A stretch of 45,724 bases of DNA from a bacterium (GTDB lineage Bacteria; Hydrothermota; UBA3073; JACQXS01). The notes beneath the pieces are model-generated. The model was not told the origin of the DNA. It worked only from the letters and a program-made list of their open reading frames with translations, and did not search any database. Position 1 is the first letter of the stretch. The number at the start of each line of letters is the position of its first letter. Position numbers and translations under genes: made by a program. The DNA is taken from assembly GCA_030605695.1 (NCBI GenBank), contig JAUWHX010000089.1, positions 1-45,724 of the forward strand. The letters are read 5' to 3'. Below, piece by piece: positions 15,218 through 37,679 of this stretch.

Positions 15218-17626
15218 ATGTTTAATAAACTTTCACAAAAGGCACAAGAAGCAGTCACAATCGCACAAGAGAAGTTATCTGAATTAAATCATACAGAGTT
15301 TAAGATTCCACATTTACTTTTTGGTCTGCTTGACCAACCAGAAGGTGTAGTGCCTCAAATACTTGAAAAACTTGGAATAGACCACAATGTTATTAAAAAC
15401 GAGGTCTCAGATAAACTTAACCAGCTTCCAAAAACTTATGGAACTTCCCTGATGCAAGCTTATATTACTCCAAAGGTGAAAAGAGTTTTTGACATTGCTT
15501 CCGGGGAGGCAAGGAGACTTCATGATGAATATATTGGATGCGAGCACCTTTTTATTGGGATAGTTGAGGTAGGAGACCAAAGCCTGAAGAAAGCTGGAGT
15601 CACAAAAGAGAAAGTCTATCAAGCACTTGAGTCAGTGCGAGGCACTTCAAGGCTGGATGAACCTATGGGAGAGGAAAAATATCGCATATTAGAAAAATAT
15701 TCAAGAGACCTTACTCAACTTGCACAAGAAGGAAAGCTTGACCCTGTGATAGGAAGAGAGGATGAGATAACACGAGTTATGCAGATTCTCTGCCGTCGGA
15801 CAAAAAACAATCCTGTTCTTATAGGTGAAGCTGGGGTTGGCAAAACCGCAGTTGTTGAAGGACTTGCACAAAAAATAGCCGCAAATGATGTCCCTGAAAT
15901 GCTTAAAGATAAGCGTATGATGGAGCTTAATGTTGGGAGTCTTGTTGCTGGCTCAAAGTTCCGTGGAGATTTTGAGCAACGGATGAAAGGCGTGATGGAA
16001 GAGATTCGCAAAGCAAAGGGGAAAATAATCCTCTTTATTGATGAGCTTCATACGATTGTGGGAGCCGGAGCCGCAGAAGGTGCTGTTGATGCAGGAAATA
16101 TGCTTAAACCGTCTCTTGGAAAAGGCGAATTGCAATGTGTAGGAGCTACTACGCTTGACGAGTATAGAAAGTATATAGAAAAAGACCAGGCTCTTGCAAG
16201 AAGATTTCAGCCAGTTTATGTAGAGGAGCCATCTGTGCAGGACACAATTAAGATTCTTGAGGGGCTGAAGCCAAAATATGAAGAACATCATAAGGTAAAA
16301 ATATCTGATGTGGCTCTACTTGCTTGTGCGGTGCTTTCCCATAAATATATTTCAGATAGGTTTCTTCCAGATAAGGCAATAGATTTACTTGATGAAGCGG
16401 CTTCAAAGTTAAGACTTGATATATATCTTGCTCCACCGGAGATAAAAGAGATGGAGCAAAAACTAAAAGAACTCAGCAAAAAAGGACAATCTGCTGTGAA
16501 ATCACAAAATTACGAGGAAGCTGCACGTCTGCGAGACAAATCAGATAAACTGAGCAAGCGATATACTAAAGCTCGGAAAGGATGGCTCCATAAACGCGGG
16601 ATAGATGATGTAGTAGATGCAGAAGATATTGCACAAGTTGTGTCAAAATGGACAGGAATTCCTATTACCCGTATGCTTATGCAGGAGAGCGAAAAACTCT
16701 TAAAAATAGAGGAGAGTATCCACAATCGCATAGTTAATCAGGAAGAGGCAGTAAGTGCGATAGCTAATGCCATTAGAGTATCAAGAGCAGGGCTTAGAGA
16801 CGAACAGAGACCAATAGGGTCATTTATATTCTTAGGCCCAACAGGGGTCGGAAAAACAGAATTAGCCAAGGCACTTGCTGAGTTTTTATTTGACTCTGAA
16901 TCCGCACTGCTCCGAATAGATATGTCAGAATATCAGGAACGACATACGGTTTCAAGGTTGATAGGTGCACCTCCCGGATATGTCGGCTACGAAGAAGGAG
17001 GACAACTCACTGAGCCTGTGAGGCGGAGACCTTTTCGGGTGATATTATTTGATGAAATTGAAAAGGCACATCCTGATGTTTATAATATACTATTGCAGAT
17101 TATGGATGACGGACGGCTCACCGATGCACAGGGCAGAGTAATTAACTTCAAACACACAATAATAATAATGACCTCAAATGTCGGAACACAAGAAGTGCAA
17201 AAGAAATGTATCGGATTCAACACTGAGACTCGCCAATCGGATTACAAAAGGATAAAACAACGATTGATGGAGGAAGTTAAGAGACATTTTAGACCTGAGT
17301 TCTTGAATCGGGTTGATGAGATAGTTATATTTCATTCATTGAGCAAGGAGCATATATTAGAAATAGTAGACATTGAGCTTCAGAAATTAGTTAGAGCTTT
17401 AGCCGACAAGAAAATAGAATTTAAGGTTACAAAAGCCGCAAAGTCTTTACTTGCTACTGAGGGCTACAATGCGGAATACGGAGCAAGACCTTTAAAGCAA
17501 GTAATCCGCCGACTCGTGGAAAATCCTCTTTCCATTAAAATCATAAAAGGAGAGGTCAAAGAAGGCGACCACATTATCCTCGGCGTCAAAGCCAAGCAAA
17601 TTACTTTTGAGAAACGCAATCAGTAG
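15218..17626 (+). CDS. clpC: ClpC-type AAA+ protease ATPase subunit
   Basis: 802 aa unfoldase that feeds substrates to ClpP in the cytoplasm. Two Clp-N repeats lie at about residues 1-145 ([34 protein letters not shown]). NBD1 has Walker A GEAGVGKT (about 204-211) and Walker [11 protein letters not shown] short middle domain contains a UVR-like [11 protein letters not shown] (about 431), which points to ClpC rather than ClpB. NBD2 has GPTGVGKT (about 540), [11 protein letters not shown] and [16 protein letters not shown] near residue 663 fits the IGF loop that docks on ClpP; no clpP is in the window. The last codons and the stop lie inside or beside a 32-bp palindrome (17621-17652), so the native C-terminus may have been altered. 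Confidence 0.95.
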
Positions 17627-18606: not shown

Positions 18607-20736
18607 CTATCCTCCTTCTAAAAACTTAAGTTTTTCTTGGTATCGGCGATTTAGTACCTCTCTGATTATTTTATTCTCTGGATTCTCTAATCTCGGGTCA
18701 TCTTCTATAATCTTAAATGCAAGACTCCTCGCCCGCGAGAGAACCCGTGTATCCATAAGATTGGCAAGCTTGAGCTCTGGAAGCCCATGTTGCCGAGTTC
18801 CGAAAAACTCTCCAATTCCTCTTAATTCCAAATCCTTTTCTGCAAGCTTAAACCCATCTTCCTCTTTCTCAATAGCTTTGAGTCTCTCCTTCGCTATTTC
18901 TCCCAGATTTTCAGGAGATACAAAAATACAATAAGATTTAGTTTTCCCTCTCCTGAGTCTACCTCTGAGTTGATGAAGCTGAGCAAGCCCAAATCGTTCT
19001 GCGTGCTCTATTATCATACAGCTTGCATTCGGGATGTCAAGTCCTACTTCTATCACAGTGGTTGCTACGAGGATATTTAACTTTCCGGAGCTAAATTCTT
19101 CCATCACTCTGGCTTTTTCTTTTCTCTTTAATCTTCCGTGCAAAAGTCCAACCTCATAATCTTTAAAAACTCCTTTACGCAATCTTTCATATTCTTCTCG
19201 AGCCGCCTTGAGGTCAAGTTTCTCAGACCCCTCAATAACAGGATAAACGATATAACACTGTCTCCCTTCTTTGAGTTCTGACCTCACAAATTCCCAAACT
19301 TCCTGAATTTTATTTTCATACACCCACCGAGTGTGAATTTCTCCCACATTAGGTGGCATCTCATCAATCACAGATATATCAAGGTCTCCATAAATTGTAA
19401 GTGCCAGAGACCTTGGTATTGGGGTAGCAGTCAAGACAAGAATATCTGGCGACTTTGCTTTCTGGGCAATGCTTATTCTCTGCATAACACCAAACTTATG
19501 TTGCTCGTCAATTACAATAAAACCCAGTTTTTTAAACTTAATCCCAGACTCAATTAAAGCGTGAGTGCCGACAACTATTTGAACCTCTCCATTATTTATC
19601 TCCTCTTTGATTCTTCGCTTATCTTGGGCTGATAAGCTTCCAATTAGAAGCCCTAAATTTACCCCAATTTTGGGTAGGTAATGAGATAATCTTAAATAAT
19701 GCTGTTCTGCAAGAACCTCTGTTGGAACCATAAGAGCCGATTGATATCCTGACTCAACTGCTTTTAGCATTGATAGAATTGCAATAACTGTCTTGCCTGA
19801 CCCCACATCTCCTTGAAGTAACCTGTTCATCTTACACTTACTTTCCATATCTTCATATATTTCCCATATTACTCTTCGTTGAGCTTCTGTAAGCTTAAAT
19901 TCAGGAGTTTCAGTAGTTAATAAATCAAAAAACTGTCTTGCCAACTCACTCCCTTTCTTAAACTTAATCCCCTTTTTTCTAATGCTCTTTTTCCGTAGAG
20001 CAAGCAGAACTTGGAGCCAAAATAGCTCCTCAAACTCTAACCTCTGATGTGCAAGCTCTGCAAGCTCAAGCTTTTGTGGGAAATGAAGATAGTGAATAGC
20101 TTTTTCTCTTGGCAAAAGCTTCTCCTCTTTGAGTATATAAGATGGCAAAGTCTCTGGAATCTCTATATCATTGGCAAATGTTGTCCGCACAACTTTTCTT
20201 ATATATTTATGAGTCAACCATTGCGAAAGAGGGTAAATTGGCAAAAACTTCTCCTTAGATGAGGGAGAAAATGTAACTGATGGATTTACTATTTGAAGAT
20301 TTCTACCCCAAAAGGAAATAACTCCCTCAACTTCAATCAGTTTATTCCACTTAAAATTAGATGTTGCCTTTCTGGAATAATTAAAAAAACTCAAGTCAAG
20401 CGTCCCTGTCCCATCTGATAACTTAACAACAAACACAGGACCTTTGCTTGTTCTTTTTGTTCGTGTTTGAATAATTCTTCCTACAACTCGCATCTCCTCG
20501 TTAAACTCTGGAACCGTTGAACCCTTGAACCCTGGAACCCTTAAACCCTGGAACCCTTGAACTCTTGGACTTATATCCTTTATAAGACTTTTCCTCGCAT
20601 ATCTTCTTGGAGCAAGAGTCAAAAGGTCTTCAACTGTTTCCACCCCAAGCTTTTTAAACACTTCAGCCACCTTAGGTCCCACTCCCTTCAGATATTGAAC
20701 ATTCGTATCAACTGTACACTTCATTTTAGTATTCAT
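18607..20736 (-). CDS. recG: ATP-dependent DNA helicase RecG
   Basis: 709 aa superfamily 2 helicase that remodels stalled replication forks and branched DNA. The N-terminal YLKGVGPKVAEVFKKLGVETVEDLL and PRRYARK lead into the wedge OB-fold domain (VVGRIIQTRTKRTSKG, LSDGTGTLDLSFFN). Helicase motifs: QGDVGSGKTV (Walker A, about residue 314), VVGTHALIE, IDEQHKFGVMQR, TATPIPRSLALTIYGDLD, VATTVIEVGLDIPNA and RGRLRRG. Between ISP and NEEMRVVGR, the start of the wedge, about 24 residues (residues about 55-79) come from nine 8-bp repeat units (20501-20572), an insertion other RecG proteins do not need. It starts 6 bp after the DUF2520 stop. Confidence 0.96.
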   Translation of the reverse strand: MNTKMKCTVDTNVQYLKGVGPKVAEVFKKLGVETVEDLLTLAPRRYARKSLIKDISPRVQGFQGLRVPGFKGSTVPEFNEEMRVVGRIIQTRTKRTSKGPVFVVKLSDGTGTLDLSFFNYSRKATSNFKWNKLIEVEGVISFWGRNLQIVNPSVTFSPSSKEKFLPIYPLSQWLTHKYIRKVVRTTFANDIEIPETLPSYILKEEKLLPREKAIHYLHFPQKLELAELAHQRLEFEELFWLQVLLALRKKSIRKKGIKFKKGSELARQFFDLLTTETPEFKLTEAQRRVIWEIYEDMESKCKMNRLLQGDVGSGKTVIAILSMLKAVESGYQSALMVPTEVLAEQHYLRLSHYLPKIGVNLGLLIGSLSAQDKRRIKEEINNGEVQIVVGTHALIESGIKFKKLGFIVIDEQHKFGVMQRISIAQKAKSPDILVLTATPIPRSLALTIYGDLDISVIDEMPPNVGEIHTRWVYENKIQEVWEFVRSELKEGRQCYIVYPVIEGSEKLDLKAAREEYERLRKGVFKDYEVGLLHGRLKRKEKARVMEEFSSGKLNILVATTVIEVGLDIPNASCMIIEHAERFGLAQLHQLRGRLRRGKTKSYCIFVSPENLGEIAKERLKAIEKEEDGFKLAEKDLELRGIGEFFGTRQHGLPELKLANLMDTRVLSRARSLAFKIIEDDPRLENPENKIIREVLNRRYQEKLKFLEGG
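20501..20572 (-). repeat. In-frame 8-bp repeat array inside recG
   Basis: Nine consecutive 8-bp units with plus-strand consensus TTGAACCC/TGGAACCC (variants TTAAACCC, TTGAACTC, TTGGACTT). 72 bp in all, so exactly 24 codons, giving RVQGFQGLRVPGFKGSTVPEF at the edge of the wedge domain. This is the only 8-bp array; the others have 7- or 10-bp periods. Confidence 0.9.
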
Positions 20737-25960: not shown

Positions 25961-28900
25961 ATGATGAGAAATTATAAATTACAAAATGCAGATTGCAGAT
26001 TATGGGGTCTTATTCTACTATCAACTCTCTACTCTTTACTCTCTACTCCTGTTTTTGGACTGACTACAGGCAAGATAAGGGGAATTGTAACTGATACAAA
26101 GACAGGAGAAGCACTTCCGTATGCTAATGTTGTAATGGAAGGCACTGTTTTCGGAGCAGCAACTGACCTTAAAGGAGAATATGTAATTGTCAATGCCCCC
26201 GTCGGAAGCCACACAATGATAGCAAGTATGCTCGGTTATGCAAATATGAAAGTTCAGGACGTAAGAGTAAGTGTAAATATGACAACCACTGTCAATTTCA
26301 AACTTGAACCGACTGCAATAAGGGGAAAGGAAGTAGTAGTAAAGGCAAAACGACCTATAATTCAACGTGATGTAACTGCATCATCAAAAAGGATGAGTGG
26401 CAAACAGATTACTCAAATGCCTGTCTCGGATTATGAAGACGTAATTGCCTTGCAATCAGGCGCAATAGAAACCGGTGGCTCAAGGTCAGGAGGATTGCAT
26501 ATAAGAGGCGGCAGAAGTGACGAAGTAGTATATATTGTTGATGGAATAAACACCACTGACCCTGTATCTGGGAAATCCGGTGCGATTCTTGACAATAATG
26601 CTATTCAGGAAATGCTTGTGATTTCTGGTGGCTTTGATGCTGAATATGGAAATGCTATGTCAGGTATTGTGAATGTTGTTACTCGCGAAGGTAAATCTAA
26701 ATATGAAGGAAGACTCAAATATACTACTGACCAGGCTTTCCCTAAGAGCGATTCTCTACATAATACCCAGAAATTATTTGAACAGGGATATAATTTCGGT
26801 CTTAATAACCTTGCACTTACACTTGGTGGCCCGCTCCCCTGGATTAAAAAGGCAACCTTCTTCTCGTCAGGCGGATATAAGAGTTATGATGCTTATCTTC
26901 CGGGGAGTGATTCCAGAGAAACCAAAGGGACATTAAAACTTGGTTGGAGACTCAGCAATGACTTCAAAGCCACTCTCTCAAGTAATTATGCTTATAAGGA
27001 TTATCACTCGTATTGGCATAGCTTTTCAAAGGGAGCGTGGGCAGATGATACACCCAGATACGAACGTTGGAACTCTCAGGTTAATTTAAAACTTAATCAT
27101 AATATTAATTCTAAAACTTTCTATACTATAAATATTGGAAGGTTTGAGACTGCTCGTAAAATTAGAGGCCAAAACGGCAGAGACTTCAATAATTTTAGTG
27201 AAATTGGGAAAAGACTCCCATGGGTAAGTATCGCAAGAGATTCCTTGTGGTATAATCCTGAGACAAAGGAATGGAAAGAGGGATGGTCCGAACAACGTGC
27301 ATGGAACTGGTATTACGAGAATGTGAAACAATTTGGAGAATGGCGGCCGGGGATAGGTTGGAAATGGCATTCCGATACAGAACCCAAGGATATTGTGGAT
27401 GCTTTAAATTTTAGAAGATATGAAACTGCTACTTTCTCTCTTGATTCGCTCGCAGGTGATTCTCTTTGGTATAGAATTGATGATACTACTGCTGTTTACT
27501 ATCACACTTTTGACATTGACAAATATATTGATGATGTTGCAATGTTTATTGCAGATTCTCTTGAAGAACAGGATATTCAACCCTCGGGCAATTTGTATGA
27601 GATTAGATATAATAAAGAATCTGAGTTTGGTAGATTTAATTATTATTTCTCACCCAAGTGGCATGACCGAACTACTACTCGTTATTCAATAGACTTGAAG
27701 CTCACCACTCAACTTAACCGCTACAATGAGGTTAAATTTGGCACAAACACTGAATTCCACAAACTCCACCTTACTGATATAGTTTTTACTAATCGTAATC
27801 CTTATATTGACTATTATGATAAAGAACCTCTTACTATCGCTGCTTATGTCTCTGATAAAATTGAGTATGAGGATATGGTCCTTAAACTCGGCCTACGCGC
27901 TGACTACTTTGACCCAAAGTCTGATTTTTATATCCATCTTGATTCGCTTGAAGCTGGTAAAGAGCCCGCTGAACCCAAATTCCAATTCTCTCCAAGAGTC
28001 GGCATCTGTTATGCCGTATCCGATAAATCCGCTATGTTCGCTAATTACGGCCACTTCTTCCAACCTTTGAACTTCGCAGATATTTATCAAAACCTTAATG
28101 CTGACATTACTGTCGCATGGCCAAAAATTGGCAATCCAGACCTTCCTCCTCAAAAAGAAATTATGTATGAAGGTGGTCTTAAATATGCATTCACCCCTGA
28201 TATGTCTGCTGAAATTACCGCATACTTTAAAGATGTTAAGACCCTTTTAACTCAACGTCAGATGACTACTATCTTTCATAGAAAACTTGCTACTTACACT
28301 ATTTATGAATTGCATGATTTTGCTCTCGTTAAAGGTATAGATTTAACTTTTACCAAACGTGCCCGAAGATTCCTCTCAGGCTCCGTTTCTTACTCTTTCC
28401 AGTCTGCTAAAGGGACTGGTTCCAGCGCTTCAGAGGCATTCTATTTCTACTACTACTACGGCGGAACAGGCGAACCCCCTCAACGCGAATTCCCATTAGA
28501 ATACGATATTACTCATACTATTAAAACCAACTTAAATCTTTACTTACCAAAAAAATGGGGTCCCCAACTATCGGGTATGAACCCATTAGCTGACTTAAAT
28601 ACCAATATCCAATTTATGTTTCACACAGGGCCACCTTATACTCCTACTGACCAGAAAGGCACATTTCTTAAAATCGGCTCAAAGAGACTTCCTGCTGTCT
28701 CTAATATTGACATTAGAGTGGATAAAGGGTTTGAATTTGGCAGTTTAGATTTCTCCCTGTTCGGCATTGTTCGCAATCTCTTGAACACCAAAAATGTTGT
28801 AAGTGTTTACTCTGCCACTGGCCTACCTGATAGAGGTGACTCTCCTCCTAAATGGGATGAATCTCGCTATACTGCTCTTTATGAGTTTAAAAAAGACTAC

Positions 28901-29038
28901 TACAAGGAAAGATATGGATGGAATTCTCCTAAGGATATGTACGATGCTAATGTTGAGGATTGGAGCAGATATTATAATACTCCTTTGAACTATGGTAATC
29001 CAAGAATTATTCGGGTCGGAATAGAACTTAAATTTTAA
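25961..29038 (+). CDS. TonB-dependent outer-membrane receptor with carboxypeptidase-regulatory-like domain
   Basis: 1025 aa. Signal peptide (about residues 1-34) encoded almost wholly by heptad repeats. A CarboxypepD-reg-like domain follows, GKIRGIVTDTKTGEALPYANV to VNFKLEP (about 37-118). A TonB-box-like EVVVKAKRP leads into the plug (about 128-235: VIALQSGAIETGGS, LHIRGGRSDEVVYIVDGIN, GGFDAEYGNAMSGIVNVVTREG). The rest is a 22-strand-type barrel with many aromatic alternating strands, ending IIRVGIELKF with the C-terminal phenylalanine of outer-membrane proteins. No SusD-like partner follows; instead come a secreted protein, an NHL lipoprotein and a PorV-like protein. The ligand is unknown. 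AAAAGGAGGT is the Shine-Dalgarno. Confidence 0.94.
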   Translation: MMRNYKLQNADCRLWGLILLSTLYSLLSTPVFGLTTGKIRGIVTDTKTGEALPYANVVMEGTVFGAATDLKGEYVIVNAPVGSHTMIASMLGYANMKVQDVRVSVNMTTTVNFKLEPTAIRGKEVVVKAKRPIIQRDVTASSKRMSGKQITQMPVSDYEDVIALQSGAIETGGSRSGGLHIRGGRSDEVVYIVDGINTTDPVSGKSGAILDNNAIQEMLVISGGFDAEYGNAMSGIVNVVTREGKSKYEGRLKYTTDQAFPKSDSLHNTQKLFEQGYNFGLNNLALTLGGPLPWIKKATFFSSGGYKSYDAYLPGSDSRETKGTLKLGWRLSNDFKATLSSNYAYKDYHSYWHSFSKGAWADDTPRYERWNSQVNLKLNHNINSKTFYTINIGRFETARKIRGQNGRDFNNFSEIGKRLPWVSIARDSLWYNPETKEWKEGWSEQRAWNWYYENVKQFGEWRPGIGWKWHSDTEPKDIVDALNFRRYETATFSLDSLAGDSLWYRIDDTTAVYYHTFDIDKYIDDVAMFIADSLEEQDIQPSGNLYEIRYNKESEFGRFNYYFSPKWHDRTTTRYSIDLKLTTQLNRYNEVKFGTNTEFHKLHLTDIVFTNRNPYIDYYDKEPLTIAAYVSDKIEYEDMVLKLGLRADYFDPKSDFYIHLDSLEAGKEPAEPKFQFSPRVGICYAVSDKSAMFANYGHFFQPLNFADIYQNLNADITVAWPKIGNPDLPPQKEIMYEGGLKYAFTPDMSAEITAYFKDVKTLLTQRQMTTIFHRKLATYTIYELHDFALVKGIDLTFTKRARRFLSGSVSYSFQSAKGTGSSASEAFYFYYYYGGTGEPPQREFPLEYDITHTIKTNLNLYLPKKWGPQLSGMNPLADLNTNIQFMFHTGPPYTPTDQKGTFLKIGSKRLPAVSNIDIRVDKGFEFGSLDFSLFGIVRNLLNTKNVVSVYSATGLPDRGDSPPKWDESRYTALYEFKKDYYKERYGWNSPKDMYDANVEDWSRYYNTPLNYGNPRIIRVGIELKF
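25971..26050 (+). repeat. Heptad arrays encoding the receptor's signal peptide
   Basis: Two arrays: five units at 25971-26005 (ATTATAA, ATTACAA, AATGCAG, ATTGCAG, ATTATGG) and five at 26016-26050 (TACTATC, AACTCTC, TACTCTT, TACTCTC, TACTCCT). The second encodes LLSTLYSLLSTP, the hydrophobic core of the signal peptide. Confidence 0.85.
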
Positions 29039-29076
29039 GGGTTAAATGCTGAAAGATAATCACTTAAATAAGGCTA

Positions 29077-29112
29077 AGGGTAATTCGGAGCTTATGCTCT
29101 TCAGATGCCCTA
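29077..29112 (+). other. Possible intercistronic hairpin
   Basis: Between the receptor stop and the Shine-Dalgarno of the next gene, AGGG and GCCCT flank an inner stem GGAGC-TTAT-GCTCT with internal loops. It could affect mRNA stability or processing between the two genes. There is no T-tract. Confidence 0.3.
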
Positions 29113-29119
29113 AGGAGGT

Positions 29120-29202
29120 AAAATGCAAAATGCAAAATGCAGAATGCAAAAGTTTTTAATTGTCTGTTTACTATCTACTGCCTACTGCCTACTGCCTACT
29201 TA
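29120..29202 (+). repeat. Heptad arrays at the start codon and signal peptide of the 29123 gene
   Basis: Units AAAATGC three times and AGAATGC (29120-29147); the ATG start is inside the first unit. A second array of CTACTGC units (29175-29195, then CTACTTA) encodes LLSTAYCLLPTY, the hydrophobic core of the signal peptide. Confidence 0.88.
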
Positions 29203-32200
29203 CGCTAATGGCTATTATGCCCCAAAGTCTGCTCGTGTAGATAAAACCAAAACTCCAACTATCACTGGTATCAAGAGTCAAGTTAGTGATAAACCTGCTG
29301 ATTTCTGGTGGATATGGTGGACAGGTATCGGCAACTTTGCTAATTATACTGTTTCTAATACCCTACAAGGCGGTTATTTCGGTAATCCTCAGGTCTGTGG
29401 CGACTATTTTGATGCTACTATGGAACAATGGGTATGTGCCTATCAGGGTGGTAGCAGTGGTTTTAGAGGCCTCACAGGTGAATACCCTGCCGGAAGCAGG
29501 CAATTTTATGTCTGGGCTGCTGGAGTATGGATAGGTGCTCTCTACCCTGCAAGAATAGAAGCTGTTGTTGATACTGCTGGCGATACTACCAGTATTGATA
29601 CTACTTGGGAACATAGAGTTTCTAAAGGTGCCTATTATTCTGATATGGGCGGTATGGCTCTTCCTGAACTTGAAGATGCTGGTGAAGTTGGCGATGTCTC
29701 TTACCCGGGACTTGCTTTCTCTACCCAAATAATCCCTTGGAACCATGGATATGAACACGAGGGCGATAATGTCTTTACTCAGCCCGGAATGTCCCCACAG
29801 GGATATGATACTCTATGGCCATTTGCTGATACCCTTATTAATTCCCGTAGAGAAGACTCTACTACACATATACACCCCGACTCAGGTGATATATTATCAG
29901 GCGAAGATACTTACGCTGTTGCCGGTGACTGGATTCCCGAACAAGATGCCTCTGTAATATGGACCAGAGATGCCGGCCCTTACGATGTCCATCCTCTGGG
30001 CATTAGAGTTGAACAACGAACTTATTCTTGGAACTATGATTACAATAATGCTTATATTTATCTCAATTGGAAAATTAGAAATATGAATTCTTTTCCTCTT
30101 GACTCCATCTATCTCGGCTATTTTATGGATAACGATATTGGTGCAGGAACAAGTGACCCAAACCAAGGTTCTGAAGATGATTTAATTTTCTTTGACACTT
30201 CCTCTGTTGAAGTGCTTCCAGGTGTTTTTAGAGACCTTGACCTCGGATATACTTTTGATTCTGACGGCTATGAAGATAACTGGACAACTCCTGCTGGATT
30301 TGTCGGTTGCGTGTTCTGTGAAACCCCAGATGACAAGGGGCTTACCGGCTTCCAATACTGGACCAGAGAAGGTGAATTTGGCTTACTGATTGACGAGGAT
30401 GCCCAAGACTCACTTAAATATGAGGCACTTGCTCACCGTGAACCCAGATTTATCACTGCCGGCACATCGGATGATATGAGACAACTCTCCTGTAGTGGTC
30501 CTTATATTAGATTACTGCCCGGTGAAGAAATAGATTTTACCGTCGCTATTGTAGTTGCTTATACCTTTGATGAACTCAGAGAACGTGCAATAACTGCGTT
30601 AAAACAGTTTGAACTGGGATACCTTGGATATGAACCTCCTCCTCCACCAGAACTCTCAGTTGTTCCGGGAGACGATAAAGTTTATATCTCTTGGGATGGA
30701 ACATTCTCTGAAAGCTATGTTGACAGAATGGCTAAACAATCCACATTTGAAGGTTACAGAGTTTATCGGAGTCAGACCGGTTTATTAGGTGAATGGGATA
30801 CTTTGGCTACTTATGACTTGAAGTCATCCACCTCTCCTGCTGTGCTTGTTAAATATACTAAAGGAACAAGCAAAGCTGAAATATCTCTCGGTGACTTGGA
30901 TGCTAATCATTCTTCGTGGCTCTCTACTAAAACCTACAAAATTACTTTTAATTCCGAACATCATTTCGTGCTTTGGGATAGTACCGACAACAAACAAGTC
31001 TTCTATAATAACTATGCTCACCTCTATGGTGAAGGTTATAGTGTTATGGATAATATGTATGGAACTGCATATCCTACAGACCCGGGCTATGTTTCCGATG
31101 CTTTTATTTATATCCCTGGCTTTTATATTAAAATTAAAAACGGTGAAGTTATCCCTGACCAACCCGCTGTAAATCTTGCTCCTTGCCCCGGTGATGAATT
31201 CGTAATCCATAGTTATGGAAAAGAAGAAATTGGCAGAGAACTTGGTATCGAACGCTATTACATAGATGAAGATGTTACTAATGGTATGAAATATTATTAT
31301 ACTGTTACTGCTTTCTCTCGTCCTCTCCCAGAACTCGGTGTCGGATCCCTTGAATCCGGCAAATCAGGCCTCCAATATTGGGCTATCCCTCTCAAACCTC
31401 CTGCTGATTACGAAGGTACATCTTATCTAATCGAAAAATCAGGTCTCGGAGATGTCCGACTTGATATAGATATTGTAAATCCGAAAGATGTCACCGGCCA
31501 TACTTACATCCTTTCTTTCTTCACCCCTGATACGATTGATACTCTCACTCCTGATTACTGGAGATTAACTGACAAGAATAACAATGAAATAATACACGAC
31601 AGCTGTTCTTACTTTGACCTCCAAACCCTCCCATTGCTCTATGGTCTTGACATTAAGCTCGGCAAGATTCCAAGAGGTCTCGTAGATAGAGAGACTGATA
31701 TAGATTCGCTTGTTACCGGTTGGGATACTACCGGTCGGGGAGAAGAAGAAGTCTCTGACTGGGAATTTGCTATAGAACCTAATTACGGATACTCAGGTAT
31801 TTATTATTATGACTATCTTCTTCAAATTTCTGATACAGGAAGTACTGATTTGCTCGGAAAACATGCTCCATTCACTCTTTGGAATACTAATCTCAATACT
31901 CCCGGCTTATTCATCTATGCCAAAGGTGATTCCGATTCCTTGTGGTATAATGACCAAATATGGATTTACGCCGACTCACTCCCTTCTCCCAAAGAACTCA
32001 AATTAACTGTTAATTTTGATACCACTAACCACATACCCCCTAAAATTGGAGATGTATATAAGATAGAAATCTTGAATCAGGCTACTACTCTTGATACTTT
32101 TGAACTCCTGACCACAAAATTTAACGAACCACTAAAAGGATATAATCTTGACTCTCTTAGGGTAGTGCCTAATCCTTATTATATTCGTGCTGATTGGGAC

Positions 32201-32503
32201 CACAGCGACTTCCGACAAAAAGTTTGGTTCCAAGGTCTGCCGTCTAAATGTACAATCCGAATCTTCAATATCGCAGGTTTATTGATAAAGACAATTGAGC
32301 ACGAAGAACCAGAAATCAGCACTATGAAGGATAGAACTGAAATGTCAGGAGTTGGAGCTCGCGCATGGGACTTATGTTCAGAAGAGGAGAAAGGCAAAAC
32401 AGGACTTAAAGTAGCAAGTGGTCTATACATTTATCAAGTTATCGCTAAGACCCCTGACGGTAAACCTATTCAAAAAGTAGGCAAATTTGCCATAATTAGA
32501 TAA
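29123..32503 (+). CDS. Large secreted protein with Fn3-like and C-terminal sorting domain
   Basis: 1126 aa. The signal peptide ends near TYANG. The N-terminal third is rich in aromatic and acidic residues (FWWIWWTGIGNFANY, DAGPYDVHPLGIRVEQRTYSW) and matches no domain I can name. A fibronectin-III-like module starts about residue 505 with PPPPELSVVPGDDKVYISWDG and FEGYRVYRSQTG. The C-terminus has the FlgD-like/type IX-like sorting domain: SLRVVPNPYYIRADW, CTIRIFNIAGLLIKTIEHE, GLKVASGLYIYQVIA and GKFAII. It is likely carried to the cell surface. It sits between a TonB receptor and an NHL lipoprotein, so it may act with the receptor. Strong AAGGAGGT Shine-Dalgarno; the start codon lies within heptad repeat DNA. 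Confidence 0.83.
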   Translation: MQNAKCRMQKFLIVCLLSTAYCLLPTYANGYYAPKSARVDKTKTPTITGIKSQVSDKPADFWWIWWTGIGNFANYTVSNTLQGGYFGNPQVCGDYFDATMEQWVCAYQGGSSGFRGLTGEYPAGSRQFYVWAAGVWIGALYPARIEAVVDTAGDTTSIDTTWEHRVSKGAYYSDMGGMALPELEDAGEVGDVSYPGLAFSTQIIPWNHGYEHEGDNVFTQPGMSPQGYDTLWPFADTLINSRREDSTTHIHPDSGDILSGEDTYAVAGDWIPEQDASVIWTRDAGPYDVHPLGIRVEQRTYSWNYDYNNAYIYLNWKIRNMNSFPLDSIYLGYFMDNDIGAGTSDPNQGSEDDLIFFDTSSVEVLPGVFRDLDLGYTFDSDGYEDNWTTPAGFVGCVFCETPDDKGLTGFQYWTREGEFGLLIDEDAQDSLKYEALAHREPRFITAGTSDDMRQLSCSGPYIRLLPGEEIDFTVAIVVAYTFDELRERAITALKQFELGYLGYEPPPPPELSVVPGDDKVYISWDGTFSESYVDRMAKQSTFEGYRVYRSQTGLLGEWDTLATYDLKSSTSPAVLVKYTKGTSKAEISLGDLDANHSSWLSTKTYKITFNSEHHFVLWDSTDNKQVFYNNYAHLYGEGYSVMDNMYGTAYPTDPGYVSDAFIYIPGFYIKIKNGEVIPDQPAVNLAPCPGDEFVIHSYGKEEIGRELGIERYYIDEDVTNGMKYYYTVTAFSRPLPELGVGSLESGKSGLQYWAIPLKPPADYEGTSYLIEKSGLGDVRLDIDIVNPKDVTGHTYILSFFTPDTIDTLTPDYWRLTDKNNNEIIHDSCSYFDLQTLPLLYGLDIKLGKIPRGLVDRETDIDSLVTGWDTTGRGEEEVSDWEFAIEPNYGYSGIYYYDYLLQISDTGSTDLLGKHAPFTLWNTNLNTPGLFIYAKGDSDSLWYNDQIWIYADSLPSPKELKLTVNFDTTNHIPPKIGDVYKIEILNQATTLDTFELLTTKFNEPLKGYNLDSLRVVPNPYYIRADWDHSDFRQKVWFQGLPSKCTIRIFNIAGLLIKTIEHEEPEISTMKDRTEMSGVGARAWDLCSEEEKGKTGLKVASGLYIYQVIAKTPDGKPIQKVGKFAIIR

Positions 32504-32504
32504 T

Positions 32505-32525
32505 TACGATTTACGATTAACGAAA
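32505..32525. repeat. Short heptad array before the NHL lipoprotein gene
   Basis: TACGATT, TACGATT and AACGAAA start right after the stop of the preceding gene. Same family as 8664-8691 and 37377-37411. Confidence 0.65.
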
Positions 32526-32539
32526 CTATAGGAGGAAAA

Positions 32540-34351
32540 ATGAGAAAACATAATTTCTTGTTTGTCTTTTTACTTCTTGCTTCTTACTTTTTACTTCTGG
32601 GTGGATGCAAGAAAAACCAAACACCAGAGATACCAAAGGTTCCTGCGGGACTTACAGATACAAATAATGATAACTATGATAACGGATATACCGACACTTC
32701 CTACATTTTCTATACTGATACCCGTGATGCTGAGGATGAGGATGTTTCATTTAAATTTGATTGGGGAGATGGAAATGAGTCAGATTGGAGTGAGTATATA
32801 ACTTCCGGTGAAACTTTTTATATATCTCACAGTTACCCTATGGCAGATACTTACAAGATAAAAACTAAGACAAAGGATATTCATAATAATGAATCGGATT
32901 GGTCTGCTGATTACGAAATTATAGTAATATCAAAGTCTGCATCTCCTTTTAATCCTTCTATTATATCTCTCGCAGACTCTATAGCTTTAGAAGACTCTGT
33001 TTTTTTTAAGGTATGTGCTACAGATACAAGCTCAACAAACGATAGTCTCAAATATCAATGTCAAAGGGGAAATACATTAGATACTACATGGAGACCTAAT
33101 GCCTTCATGCCATCAGGTGACACTGCAACAGTTGGGCATGCTTATTTAGATACTTCTGAACTGGGAATACAGGAGGTTAGAGTTAGGGCTAAAGACCAAC
33201 ATGGAAGTGTTTCGGAATGGTCTGCTCCCTGCACAGTTATAGCAATTCTTCCTCTACCTCCAGAGCCCCCATCAAAACCAAAGTTGAAAGAAACATACTC
33301 AACATATTACCGGCAAACCCCATTTACATTTAGTACAACTGGTGGTATGGAACTTGAATTCCGATTTATATGGGGTGATGGGAAAACATCTCCACCGATG
33401 ATAGGCAGTTCGTTCCATGAAATAGAACATTCTTTTGTGAAGATAGGAATATGCTCAGTAAGAGCAACAGTAGAGGATAAATTTGGGCAATCTGATACAT
33501 CTTTACCGTATGAAATAGATATACAAAGTAATCTTCTTAAGGAATGGGGGTCGGATATACTGGATGCTCCCTTTGGTATAACTATATCAGAGGATACTCT
33601 ATATGTCGTTGACCATAACAATCATGAAATCAAGAGATTTACTCTGGATGGAACACTCGTAGACGAAATTGGAACTAATGTTCTTGAATCTCCAATGTAT
33701 GTTGCTACTGATTCAGGCTTCGTGTATGTTACTGATGCACATAATTTTATATGTAAGTTTAGGAAAACAGGAGAACTTGAGGCAAAATGGGGTCAAGGCA
33801 AGGGCTCTGGTGATGGAGAATTTGATTTGCCAACAGGAATTGCTGTTGATTCTAATTATGTATATGTTGTTGATTCTCGTAACTTGAGAATACAAAAGTT
33901 TGATAAAGTATGGGGTCCGTTATCTTCTAATAAAAATTCCTACAGCCAGTGGAGTATACCCAGTAAATCAAGAGGTATGACTATTACAGGTGATACTTTG
34001 TATGTTTCCTGCAACTTTGACAATTCTATTAAGGTATATGGAACTACAGGCAACTCACTTGGTCCAATTGGTAAAGGAGAAGGTGTTAGAGATGGATATC
34101 TTGTTGATCCCTGTGATATAGCGGTTTATGGAGATTATGTGTTTGTAGCAGATACTGATAATAACCGTATTCAGAAATTTACAAAAAGTAATAATTTTGT
34201 TATTAGATGGGGATGTATGGGCTCATATCCATGCCAATTTAACAAGCCACAAGGTATAGCAATAGATAATGACGGCAACATATACGTAGTTGATACTGTA
34301 AATAATCGTATTCAAAAATTTGAGCCTGGAAGTAAGGGAGGTGCATTGTGA
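32540..34351 (+). CDS. Lipoprotein with PKD-like modules and NHL-type beta-propeller
   Basis: 603 aa. Signal peptide with lipobox LLLGGC (Cys about 23), so a membrane-anchored lipoprotein. Three immunoglobulin/PKD-like modules: KFDWGDGNESDWSEY, KYQCQRGN...GSVSEWSAPC and RFIWGDGKTSPP, each with a Y-K-I-K/VRA core. From about residue 335 a propeller follows with six NHL-like repeats of the form APFGITISEDTLYVVDHNNHEIKRF and QFNKPQGIAIDNDGNIYVVD..NNRIQKF. The spacing and repeat form point to a binding or scaffold role at the cell surface. Hydrophobic signal core is encoded by heptad repeats (32571-32598). It overlaps the PorV-like gene by 4 bp (GTGA). GGAGG precedes the ATG. Confidence 0.86.
   Translation: MRKHNFLFVFLLLASYFLLLGGCKKNQTPEIPKVPAGLTDTNNDNYDNGYTDTSYIFYTDTRDAEDEDVSFKFDWGDGNESDWSEYITSGETFYISHSYPMADTYKIKTKTKDIHNNESDWSADYEIIVISKSASPFNPSIISLADSIALEDSVFFKVCATDTSSTNDSLKYQCQRGNTLDTTWRPNAFMPSGDTATVGHAYLDTSELGIQEVRVRAKDQHGSVSEWSAPCTVIAILPLPPEPPSKPKLKETYSTYYRQTPFTFSTTGGMELEFRFIWGDGKTSPPMIGSSFHEIEHSFVKIGICSVRATVEDKFGQSDTSLPYEIDIQSNLLKEWGSDILDAPFGITISEDTLYVVDHNNHEIKRFTLDGTLVDEIGTNVLESPMYVATDSGFVYVTDAHNFICKFRKTGELEAKWGQGKGSGDGEFDLPTGIAVDSNYVYVVDSRNLRIQKFDKVWGPLSSNKNSYSQWSIPSKSRGMTITGDTLYVSCNFDNSIKVYGTTGNSLGPIGKGEGVRDGYLVDPCDIAVYGDYVFVADTDNNRIQKFTKSNNFVIRWGCMGSYPCQFNKPQGIAIDNDGNIYVVDTVNNRIQKFEPGSKGGAL
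32571..32598 (+). repeat. Heptad array encoding the lipoprotein signal core
   Basis: Four 7-bp units TACTTCT, TGCTTCT, TACTTTT and TACTTCT, translated as LLLASYFLLL, immediately before the lipobox. Confidence 0.85.
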
Positions 34352-35445
34352 AAGTGAAAAGTGTCCAACGGATCCTGCGGACAAAAGTCAAATCTCAAAG
34401 ATTTTTTGTCTTCTGTCTTCTGTCTTTTGTCTTCTGTCTTCTGTCTTCTCCTGCAAGTGCGAGACTCGGAGGATGTACAGGTGCATTCTTGTCAGCAGGA
34501 GGTGGAGCAAGAGCATTGGCATTAGGTGGAGCATATTCAGCATTTGCAGAAGGGATAGATGCAATTTATTGGAATCCCGCTGGAATTACAAAACTTACTC
34601 GTAATACAGTGAATTTTACTCATGCTGAGTACTTTGCTGATATGAGTCAAGAGAACATAGGAGTTGTTATGCCGATTATGGATGGAGCAATTGGGATTTC
34701 TACTATTGCGTTTCTTTCAGGAAAGATTGAGGAAACTACTCTGAGTAACCAAATGGGAACAGGAAGATATTGGTCGGCGAATAATTTTGCAGTTGGACTT
34801 TCTTATGCAAGAAGGATGACAGATAAATTTAGTGCAGGCATCACCGTTAAGGGAATAAGCCAAAATATTGACAAAGTTTCTGCAAATGGGGTAGCTTTTG
34901 ATGTAGGAGGAACTTATAATACTAAACTCAGAAACCTGAGGTTTGGATTTATAATACAAAACTTTGGCCCTGATATTGCATTTTCAGGAGAAGGACTTGA
35001 AACTGAAGTATCCGATACTTCGCTTCCTTGGCAAGATCCAACATCAATGAACAAGAAATCAACGCCCGACCCTTTGCCACTTAATTTCCAGCTCGGAGCC
35101 GCATTTGAATTGCTTGCTACACCAATTTATAAAATTGTGTTAATGGGCGATTTGGTTCATCCATCAGACCAGGAACCTACTTATGCCTTCGGAATAGAAT
35201 TTTCCGCACTAGAGAGATACTTTTTGCGATGTGGATTTACGGAGAGAAACAATCGTGGATTCTCTATTCGTGATGAATTATATGATATAATACCTATGAT
35301 GTCAAATAAAATACCTATGCTATCAGCTGTTGGAATTGGAATAGTAAATAGTTTTGGAACAGGAGAGGTCACTGTTGACTACACCTATGAGGTTCATCAA
35401 TATTTGTCGGGAATTCATAGAGTGGCATTGGGATTTGCTTTTTAA
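34348..35445 (+). CDS. PorV/PorQ-like outer-membrane barrel protein
   Basis: 365 aa. The signal peptide (about residues 1-38, ending SSPASA) has a hydrophobic core encoded by heptad repeats. The mature N-terminus GGARALALGGAYSAFAEGIDAIYWNPAGI is the hallmark of the PorV/PorQ (UPF0164) branch of FadL-like barrels, and the protein ends GIHRVALGFAF with a terminal phenylalanine. PorV works with the type IX secretion system and shuttles cargo to the surface; the sorting domains of neighbouring genes make that role plausible here. The start is GTG at 34348, overlapping the previous stop (GTGA), with AAGGGAGGT as Shine-Dalgarno. None of the other type IX genes (porK, porL, porM, porN, sov) is in the window. 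Confidence 0.88.
   Translation: MKVKSVQRILRTKVKSQRFFVFCLLSFVFCLLSSPASARLGGCTGAFLSAGGGARALALGGAYSAFAEGIDAIYWNPAGITKLTRNTVNFTHAEYFADMSQENIGVVMPIMDGAIGISTIAFLSGKIEETTLSNQMGTGRYWSANNFAVGLSYARRMTDKFSAGITVKGISQNIDKVSANGVAFDVGGTYNTKLRNLRFGFIIQNFGPDIAFSGEGLETEVSDTSLPWQDPTSMNKKSTPDPLPLNFQLGAAFELLATPIYKIVLMGDLVHPSDQEPTYAFGIEFSALERYFLRCGFTERNNRGFSIRDELYDIIPMMSNKIPMLSAVGIGIVNSFGTGEVTVDYTYEVHQYLSGIHRVALGFAF
34404..34445 (+). repeat. Heptad array encoding the PorV-like signal peptide core
   Basis: Six 7-bp units: TTTTGTC, TTCTGTC, TTCTGTC, TTTTGTC, TTCTGTC, TTCTGTC. They are translated as FVFCLLSFVFCLLSS, so the seven-residue period is visible in the protein. Confidence 0.92.
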
Positions 35446-35504: not shown

Positions 35505-37679
35505 ATGCATAAATGCACGTGGGGATTTGTGCTGCTTTTCGCTGTCCCTCTCTTGGCAAAACCTTTTGTGGTAAGAAAGGTATTGCAAACAGCTCCTAAA
35601 CCAGGAGTCGTTAGAGATAGAGAGGTAGAGGAAGTAGCAAAGGTTAAAGGATGGGGGTTGCTTACTGCTTCTCCCGGAGATACTATCGGTTCGTCGCAAT
35701 ACGATTGGCAATGGAATGCGGCACCAATTAGACGCATAGTGTATGACCCAATACTTGGAAATACACATGTTACCTGGATGCACCAAGTCGGTGGAGAGCG
35801 TCATATGTTCTACAACTTCTATGATGGCACTTGGGCATTTGGCACAGGAATAGGCGGCGGAACCGCTGTCCAGACAACTGTTCGTGACGGATACGGTGCT
35901 ATAGACTATACGACAGACGGTTGTGCAGTGGTGTCCTTACACGGAGGAGCTACTGAAGCAGATTATAAATCTCGTGTATGTGTAGATTTGATGGCAGGTG
36001 GTGGTGGCTTTGATTGTGTCGGCTTGCCTAACCCTCCTCCAGGAGAGATTAAGGTTATATGGCCAAGAGTCGCTGTGGATGGCTCCAATAATATGATTGT
36101 TGTTGCCTCAACTGACAGCGTAGTTGGTCAACACGATTCGCTCCCTACTCCACGAAACTGGTCTCGTTCAACAGATGGTGCAGGAGCTACCTGGTCCAAT
36201 TGGGTACCCTTTGACACAGCTACCGGGCTTGCATATAACATCTTTGCGAGCAAATCTTCCAATAAATTCTGCATGGTTTGGGGAAAAGACTCTTTAGAAA
36301 ATGGATCATACAGTGGCCACATTGTATATAAGGAATCTAATAATGCCGGCGCTAACTGGGGAAATCTGGTAGATATTAATACTTTGATCCCTCTTCCCCC
36401 GGCAGGAAGAACCTACACTCCATTACAATTGAGAAACTCTGTCGGCAACTGTTATGGAATATATGATTCACAGGACAATATCCATCTCGTCACTGATGCC
36501 TCTTTGGGAACTGACAAACCGGGACGTTATTATCCTTTTATGGCTTGTGTCCTATGGCATTATTCTTCTGCAACCAGTACGATGAACCCCATTGCTATAC
36601 ATTCTTTCCCTTATAACCAAGCAGTAGAAAAACCTTACCCTTACTACGGACAGTGGATGGCTAAACCTGTTATTGCCGAAGACCCTACTACAAAATACCT
36701 TTATGTTGGATGGATTGAATTCCCACATGACTCTGCAGACACCAACGGGTATGGAATGGGTGAAATTTATTGCTCATATTCACTTGACGGAGGTGCTACC
36801 TGGGCACCAAAGCTTAACTTAACTATGACTCCAGAAAACTGCGAAGTATTCTTGTCTATGGCTCCAATTGTAGATGAAACTCTGCGAATCTTCTATATGT
36901 TCGACAAAAACAACCACTCTAACATTACAGCAGACCCACCCGGATTAGACCCTGATACTTGTCTTTTCCAGTATTTTGAAGCTCCAATTGGGACAGGAAA
37001 TGTAGAAGTTGTTCAACTAATTGATGTCCCTGATACTCTTGAGTCACCATACACTCCTAAAGCAGTTTACAAAAACAAGGGAACTGCCGCAGTATCTTTC
37101 CAGGCAAGATATGAGCTCACTCTCCCAGGCATAGCGACCACACAAGAAGGGTTCGATACTCTTTTTGCTCCTTCTATTTTCTATTACGATATCATAAATG
37201 TGGTAGGGCTTGCCGCAGGAGCTACGGATACAGTTGAATTTAAAACATGGCAACCCGATTCAGGCTTCTCGGAAGGAGGACTCCCATGCTATTGTGCTGC
37301 TTATGCTACTCTTCTTATTGATACTGATTTGTCAGATAATCTAAAGGGCGATTCTTCTTTTGTAGGAATTGAGGAACACGATTCACGATTTGCGATTCAC
37401 GATTTGCGATTAGAGAGTTATCCGAATCCTGTCAGAGGAAATGCTTCTATCAAATATACTGTTCCAACCACTGCTAAGCTCAATATCAAGGTCTATGATA
37501 TTACAGGAAAGCTTGTTACTACACTCGTTGACCGTTCTCATAAACCCGGTACTTATACTATAAACTGGAACGGAATGGACTACAGAGGTAGAGAAGTTCC
37601 CGGAGGTATTTACTTCTATCGTCTGACATCAGATAAATTCAAGGAATCCACTACCAGGAAAATTGTTATCTTGAGATAG
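35505..37679 (+). CDS. Secreted Asp-box (sialidase/BNR-like) protein with C-terminal sorting domain
   Basis: 724 aa. I chose the ATG at 35505 because AAAAGGAGGTG precedes it at good spacing and a signal peptide follows (CTWGFVLLFAVPLLAKP); a frame opens 48 bp further up in repeat DNA. The main body carries Asp-box motifs of the S.DGG.TW type (RSTDGAGATWSNW, KESNNAGANWGNL, YSLDGGATWAPKL), the signature of six-bladed sialidase-like propellers. Catalytic sialidase residues are not evident, so do not read it as a sialidase. The last 85 residues, LRLESYPNPVRGNASIKYT, NIKVYDITGKLV and GGIYFYRLTSDKF, form a type IX-like sorting domain. Linker DSRFAIHDLRLES is encoded by heptads (37377-37411). Followed by a strong terminator. 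Confidence 0.86.
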   Translation: MHKCTWGFVLLFAVPLLAKPFVVRKVLQTAPKPGVVRDREVEEVAKVKGWGLLTASPGDTIGSSQYDWQWNAAPIRRIVYDPILGNTHVTWMHQVGGERHMFYNFYDGTWAFGTGIGGGTAVQTTVRDGYGAIDYTTDGCAVVSLHGGATEADYKSRVCVDLMAGGGGFDCVGLPNPPPGEIKVIWPRVAVDGSNNMIVVASTDSVVGQHDSLPTPRNWSRSTDGAGATWSNWVPFDTATGLAYNIFASKSSNKFCMVWGKDSLENGSYSGHIVYKESNNAGANWGNLVDINTLIPLPPAGRTYTPLQLRNSVGNCYGIYDSQDNIHLVTDASLGTDKPGRYYPFMACVLWHYSSATSTMNPIAIHSFPYNQAVEKPYPYYGQWMAKPVIAEDPTTKYLYVGWIEFPHDSADTNGYGMGEIYCSYSLDGGATWAPKLNLTMTPENCEVFLSMAPIVDETLRIFYMFDKNNHSNITADPPGLDPDTCLFQYFEAPIGTGNVEVVQLIDVPDTLESPYTPKAVYKNKGTAAVSFQARYELTLPGIATTQEGFDTLFAPSIFYYDIINVVGLAAGATDTVEFKTWQPDSGFSEGGLPCYCAAYATLLIDTDLSDNLKGDSSFVGIEEHDSRFAIHDLRLESYPNPVRGNASIKYTVPTTAKLNIKVYDITGKLVTTLVDRSHKPGTYTINWNGMDYRGREVPGGIYFYRLTSDKFKESTTRKIVILR
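37377..37411 (+). repeat. In-frame heptad array at the sorting-domain linker
   Basis: Five units CACGATT, CACGATT, TGCGATT, CACGATT, TGCGATT, translated as HDSRFAIHDLRL, exactly between the propeller body and the PNPV sorting domain. Confidence 0.88.

Follow-up and report, generated by a model that had tools for sequence, protein, structure and literature searches.

Four envelope genes lie head to tail on the forward strand at 25961-35445 of the window, the whole 45,724-nucleotide stretch of DNA that was analysed. A Shine-Dalgarno sequence precedes each of them (AAAGGAGG, AAGGAGG, AGGAGG and GGGAGG in gene order), and all four encode a start codon followed by the n-, h- and c-regions of a signal peptide. 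The first gene (25961-29038, + strand) specifies a TonB-dependent-receptor-like protein of 1025 amino acids with the Pfam families CarboxypepD_reg_2 (PF13715) and Plug (PF07715). The second (29123-32503, +) encodes a predicted exported protein of 1126 amino acids to which no Pfam family was matched, and the third (32540-34351, +) a lipoprotein with a PKD domain and NHL repeats (Pfam PF01436 and PF00801) and the lipobox LLGGC. The fourth (34348-35445, +) has a GTG start and encodes a PorV/UPF0164-like outer-membrane protein that scores above the Pfam cut-off for UPF0164 and just below that for PorV.

The sequence-only reading of this DNA held that the hydrophobic cores of these four consecutive proteins are built from heptad repeats. 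Tandem Repeats Finder and a lag-7 scan of the window bore this out: a 7-bp tandem array makes up the hydrophobic core of all four signal peptides, and two of the four also have an n-region built from heptads. In the TonB receptor, the n-region array (25969-26001, +; AAATTAC/TGCAGAT-like units, lag-7 score 11) encodes NYKLQNADCRL and the h-region array (26017-26048, +; TACTCTC-like units, lag-7 score 13) encodes LSTLYSLLST. In the 1126-residue protein, four copies of AAAATGC overlap the start codon (29120-29148, +) and encode MQNAKCRM, while the h-region array (29175-29200, +) consists of 3.7 perfect copies of CTACTGC; the doubled CTACTGC-type unit has no second occurrence in the genome outside this array. 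The imperfect TACTTCT-like array of the lipoprotein (32566-32596, +) ranks among the least regular, and the PorV-like protein has 6.1 copies of TTCTGTC (34407-34449, +) that encode VFCLLSFVFCLLSS. For each of the four genes the lag-7 score of the first 40 codons exceeded that of all 1000 codon-order shuffles (P=0.001, the minimum), and lags 5, 8 and 10 were not significant in these shuffles. The two heptad n-regions go beyond the earlier reading, as do another array at 37377-37411 and the occurrence of heptads all over the genome.

The translated signal peptides, in gene order MMRNYKLQNADCRLWGLILLSTLYSLLSTPVFG, MQNAKCRMQKFLIVCLLSTAYCLLPTYANG, MRKHNFLFVFLLLASYFLLLGGC and VKVKSVQRILRTKVKSQRFFVFCLLSFVFCLLSSPASA, are conventional in form. 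By inspection and a simple rule-based script, all four proteins have a positive n-region, an uncharged hydrophobic h-region, and either small residues at -3/-1 or a lipobox. Judged from these features, the export of array-bearing proteins looks like ordinary Sec export with signal peptidase I or II. A separate element, the 20-bp imperfect palindrome GTCCAACGGATCCTGCGGAC, lies within the n-region of the PorV-like protein (34363-34382, +), where it encodes VQRILRT. It is also found in the n-region of a TonB-receptor paralogue on contig C90 (2805-2824), and variants occur at five more sites, on contigs C44, C65, C75 (two) and C19. Both n-regions are heptad-built, and the element may be a very small mobile palindrome that has inserted into arrays of heptads.

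Heptad repeats across the genome and at gene starts

Since 7 and 3 have no common factor, all three frames of a strand give one cyclic heptapeptide, and the claim that each array yields a period-7 peptide whatever the frame proved exact; in gene order the peptides are YSLLSTL, LLPTAYC, YFLLLTS and FCLLSSV. A stop-free array can thus be read through in any frame, and the three frames being equivalent, the strand alone matters. An uncharged, stop-free and hydrophobic heptapeptide is encoded by 8% of the 2340 possible units, and the share of units competent to form an h-region rises from 0-2% among those with at most three pyrimidines to 36-44% among those with six or seven.

Our census covered 1.963 Mb of one 1.98-Mb draft genome, which is 84% complete and of which the window is contig C2. 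Judged by an 802-residue protein of the window (15218-17626; 74% identity), its nearest named relative is a candidate division WOR-3 bacterium. Period 7 dominates the tandem periods, with 249 arrays at a score of at least 12 against none in Markov-simulated genomes, and periods 5, 6 and 11 are near background. Tandem 7-bp units are therefore in excess of chance, and the arrays can be classed as heptameric simple sequence repeats; their units are diverse throughout the genome and none is dominant. The signal-peptide arrays are one face of a genome-wide process. Arrays of period 8, likewise not a multiple of three, are the second commonest (68 versus one simulated), an example being GAACCCTT at 20511-20567 of the window. 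A pattern search for TTCTGTC arrays matched 4 of 120 genomes of the phylum, all four from one order; the reversed-pattern control of this search was uninformative, as the reversed pattern matches the same array.

The earlier reading predicted that heptads rich in pyrimidines on the coding strand would be concentrated at the starts of signal-peptide genes genome-wide, and this is what was found. With 1725 genes from a home-made gene caller, some of whose starts may be wrong, and rule-based signal-peptide calls, 22 of 331 signal-peptide genes have an array that touches their first 120 nt, versus 7 of 880 cytosolic genes (odds ratio 8.9, P 5e-8). About 7% of signal-peptide genes thus bear an array, as do 7 of the 55 lipoproteins at their starts. 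Arrays account for 2.15% of the bases in the first 105 nt of signal-peptide genes, 0.19% in cytosolic gene starts, 0.46% in the coding interior and 0.85% in intergenic DNA. Adjacent pairs of array-bearing signal-peptide genes number seven, against 1.1 expected (P 0.0002). Contig C42 (L053, L115) holds a second cluster like that of the window, with six array-bearing signal-peptide genes within 19.3-36.9 kb.

The signal-peptide label depends in part on the array itself and is not independent of it, which gives weight to a Pfam check and to a test of orientation that uses no labels. A Pfam scan of 30 proteins with an array at the start returned the TonB plug (twice), FlgI, LptC, YceG, DUF5723, DUF1302, PKD and Por_Secre_tail, and these families confirm many of the array genes as export genes. 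The proteins with a start array but no signal peptide include, by Pfam, adenylate kinase, a Mur ligase and a flagellar/T3SS-type ATPase. Without signal-peptide labels, hydrophobic arrays run sense to antisense at 12:2 in the first 120 nt and at 1:24 further in (P 3e-7). Similarly, 12 of 21 h-region arrays are h-region-competent in sense versus none of 219 arrays in the interior of coding sequences (P 5e-15), of which 11% would be competent in antisense. This orientation bias of hydrophobic arrays indicates that selection acts on the peptide.

Sorting domains, enzymes and orthologous genes

Signal peptides are not the densest site of heptads in this genome. Heptad arrays lie in or touch 53 of the 139 T9SS-type C-terminal sorting domains that score above the PF18962 cut-off, and they make up 5.4% of sorting-domain bases versus 0.29% of the remaining coding interior. 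The window offers an example in the next exported protein (35505-37679), where a CACGATT array (37377-37411, +) lies just before the sorting domain (PF18962 match at 37419-37670). In the genome as a whole, 26 arrays of 15 different units occupy the same position, the linker just before the YPNPF motif. Part of these may be copies through domain duplication; the position is again conserved and the unit variable.

Arrays of about 33 nt are also found in intergenic DNA and within enzymes, where they encode segments of about 11 residues. In pantothenate kinase (L065:10651-11460) the array segment QAQGTRHKAQV faces a 10-residue gap in a homologue, and in adenylate kinase (L063:10291-10950) the array forms an N-terminal extension. 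In the prolyl- and valyl-tRNA synthetases ProRS (L037:5766-7481) and ValRS (L069:15924-18587) the array fills a segment of nearly equal length and is not a clean insert. An exclusive use of arrays for export signals does not hold, given the small share of signal-peptide genes that bear them, their greater density in sorting domains and their presence in housekeeping enzymes.

Orthologues were compared in loci of a few kb for three of the four genes, those of the TonB receptor, the secreted protein and the PorV-like protein. For the PorV-like protein, which has TTCTGTC units in its own genome, the signal peptide in a sister genome of the same genus (G002, 75% identical) is shorter and its TTCTTGT-like array has decayed. 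A genome of another family (G008) has TTCTTAC/TTCTCAC units, and G004 and G007 have plain signal peptides with no array. The TonB receptor of G008 has long TTTTCAA and CTTACTA/CTGCCTA arrays; no array was found in this gene in G004 or G007, and G002 and G006 gave weak lag-7 signals only, matched at other lags. For the secreted protein, G002 has a decayed array collinear with that of the window and G008 a CAATTAT array in the n-region, and an array is absent in G004, G006 and G007. Array history is partly common within the genus. Plain vertical inheritance of one signal sequence, which would have told against the earlier reading, was rejected beyond the genus, where orthologues have other units, decayed arrays or none at the same place. 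At these loci the site is conserved and the unit is not, with gain, turnover and decay among orthologues.

Origin of the arrays

We consider it probable that a lineage-wide generator of heptads is combined with recruitment or survival of its products at flexible sites, and that export is by the ordinary Sec pathway. A repeat-generating process would make short (about 30-36 nt) 7-bp tandem arrays across the genome, and these would persist, or be favoured, where the peptide is flexible. The h-region would retain mainly units that are pyrimidine-rich on the coding strand (Leu, Phe, Ser, Tyr, Cys, Thr) and the n-region purine-rich ones (Lys, Arg, Met, Asn, Gln); no array would extend over the lipobox or cleavage site, and the resulting signal peptides would work in the ordinary Sec manner, with processing by signal peptidase I or II. 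The 10-residue gap opposite the array of pantothenate kinase and the N-terminal extension of adenylate kinase are cases of tolerance at non-export sites and fit the flexible-site reading. Tolerance alone is insufficient, as the density of arrays in intergenic DNA is below that of both signal-peptide starts and sorting domains, and the explanation also calls for positive recruitment or for a mutational bias that acts locally. Counting against this explanation, start arrays are scarce, in just 2 of 81, where a signal-peptide gene also has a C-terminal sorting domain.

Leu, Phe, Ser, Cys and Tyr abound in the signal peptides that contain arrays, and the 7-bp pattern might be a by-product of leucine-rich low complexity, with hydrophobic cores drawing on few pyrimidine-rich codons. 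Codon-order shuffling preserves this composition yet abolishes the signal: at lag 7 the share of genes that beat all 100 codon shuffles is 7.6% for signal-peptide genes, 1.1% for cytosolic genes and 2.3% for membrane proteins, which have as many hydrophobic codons; at other lags signal-peptide genes reach 0.3-1.2%. Amino-acid content is therefore not the cause of the lag-7 excess, composition as the sole cause is ruled out by this control, and we give the by-product explanation next to no credence. Phase variation would switch envelope proteins on and off, as in contingency loci, through the frameshift that follows when an array grows or shrinks by one 7-bp unit. Its classical layout is present here: the repeats are close to the 5' ends of genes for surface proteins, and the unit length is no multiple of three. 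Simple repeats are moreover over-represented near the N-termini of prokaryotic proteins according to Lin and Kussell, as cited in PMC4692102. However, the arrays of the signal peptides are short and imperfect, and in place of a long perfect tract prone to slippage, their longest perfect tract has a median of 18 nt (fewer than three units) and a maximum of 32. Arrays are also found in housekeeping enzymes (ValRS, adenylate kinase, pantothenate kinase), and orthologues display unit replacement and decay, not a preserved perfect array; phase variation is thus an improbable account.

A stronger but still doubtful candidate is that arrays of ~33 nt are mobile modules, copied or inserted whole as Rickettsia palindromic elements are, with signal peptides as one tolerant landing site. 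The length of interior arrays peaks at 30-36 nt, the array of pantothenate kinase is a clean 10-residue insert, and 87% of coding-interior units have exact matches in the rest of the genome, far beyond the 15% of shuffled units, a pattern that suggests either a biased generator or a pool from which units are copied. Mobility was also considered for the TAACTGA repeats by MacGregor 2015 (PMC4679880). Against this, such sharing extends to just 6 of 21 h-region units (P 2e-8), the other 15 being absent elsewhere in the genome; the arrays of ProRS and ValRS occupy a stretch of nearly equal length; and conserved flanks or target duplications were not established. The mostly private units of the h-region favour local slippage filtered by function over a pasted generic pool. 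Within the explanation that we prefer, a lineage-wide generator with recruitment at flexible sites, we infer that the signal-peptide arrays arise mainly in situ, through slippage on codon-poor pyrimidine runs. A bolder form seems possible to us, if not likely: the arrays may be a standing, frame-independent supply of export signals, in which slippage on short pyrimidine or purine runs renews both the Sec signal and the sorting-domain region, so that exported proteins would acquire and exchange targeting segments faster than by point mutation; the arrays there would be kept by selection, not mere tolerance.

The sequence-only reading had proposed that this genome may use arrays as a ready source of export signals, a route to secretion. 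Given the enrichment at gene starts and the turnover among orthologues, the idea that arrays supply the raw material of export signals holds as a statement about evolution; a route to secretion is not supported, as the products look like ordinary Sec signals. What is unusual is the material from which these otherwise ordinary signal peptides are built, and it does not amount to a new secretion pathway. To our knowledge, the birth of new signal peptides has gone largely unobserved. Here some signal peptides are visible as recent and datable by repeat decay, with orthologues that have other solutions at the same site, and the birth of targeting segments becomes testable. As a general rule, tandem units whose length three does not divide read as a single peptide in every frame and so can enter genes wherever one strand is stop-free; whether that peptide is hydrophobic or charged depends on the orientation of the array alone.

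Comparison with known repeat systems

Other bacteria are already known to have heptad repeats and the peptides that these encode; what appears to be new is that they are concentrated in export signals. In a literature search of open-licence articles, no report came up in which heptads cluster in signal peptides and sorting domains, and nothing directly connected repeats with WOR-3 or with the emergence of signal peptides. The contingency loci of Haemophilus have simple repeats in or near the 5' ends of surface genes and so resemble the present arrays in having a repeat near the start of genes for surface proteins, whereas the arrays described here are short, imperfect and also found in housekeeping genes. 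Rickettsia palindromic elements are likewise short and lie in frame inside many unrelated proteins, but they are longer palindromes with a defined sequence, whereas this genome has simple arrays, most of them about 33 nt long, built from many different 7-bp units.

Heptamer repeats are over-represented in bacteria (PMC4692102). Those of Xanthomonas (GGGAATC) and Nostoc (GGGGAYT), reported in a 2007 survey cited in PMC4692102, are alike in that 7-bp units are over-represented among simple repeats; they differ in being G-rich, mainly non-coding and of one unit family, and the account of them in PMC4692102 makes no link to export signals. Closer are the TAACTGA heptamer direct repeats of Beggiatoaceae, Cyanobacteria and Bacteroidetes (MacGregor 2015, PMC4679880), which form scattered 7-bp tandem arrays near gene starts and encode one heptapeptide inside ORFs, where the stop-free strand gives LSVISYQ, mostly at protein edges, including those of MurG and an ABC permease. 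That system has one unit, mostly intergenic just upstream of starts, with a proposed regulatory role (PMC4679880), whereas here there are dozens of units, which lie mostly within coding sequence and cluster in signal peptides and sorting domains, and the strand preferred in the h-region is the reverse of that preferred in other coding sequence. The TAACTGA/TCAGTTA unit is absent from every signal-peptide array, which places these arrays outside the TAACTGA family of MacGregor 2015. Like the present arrays, the tandem repeats of archaeal Borgs evolve rapidly, arise independently and create new protein segments, and they favour extracellular proteins and those with signal peptides (PMC9879509). 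In Borg ORFs the unit lengths are divisible by three and the repeats form disordered regions (PMC9879509), whereas the 7-bp units described here, being frame-independent, preserve their peptide and make up the signal peptide itself.
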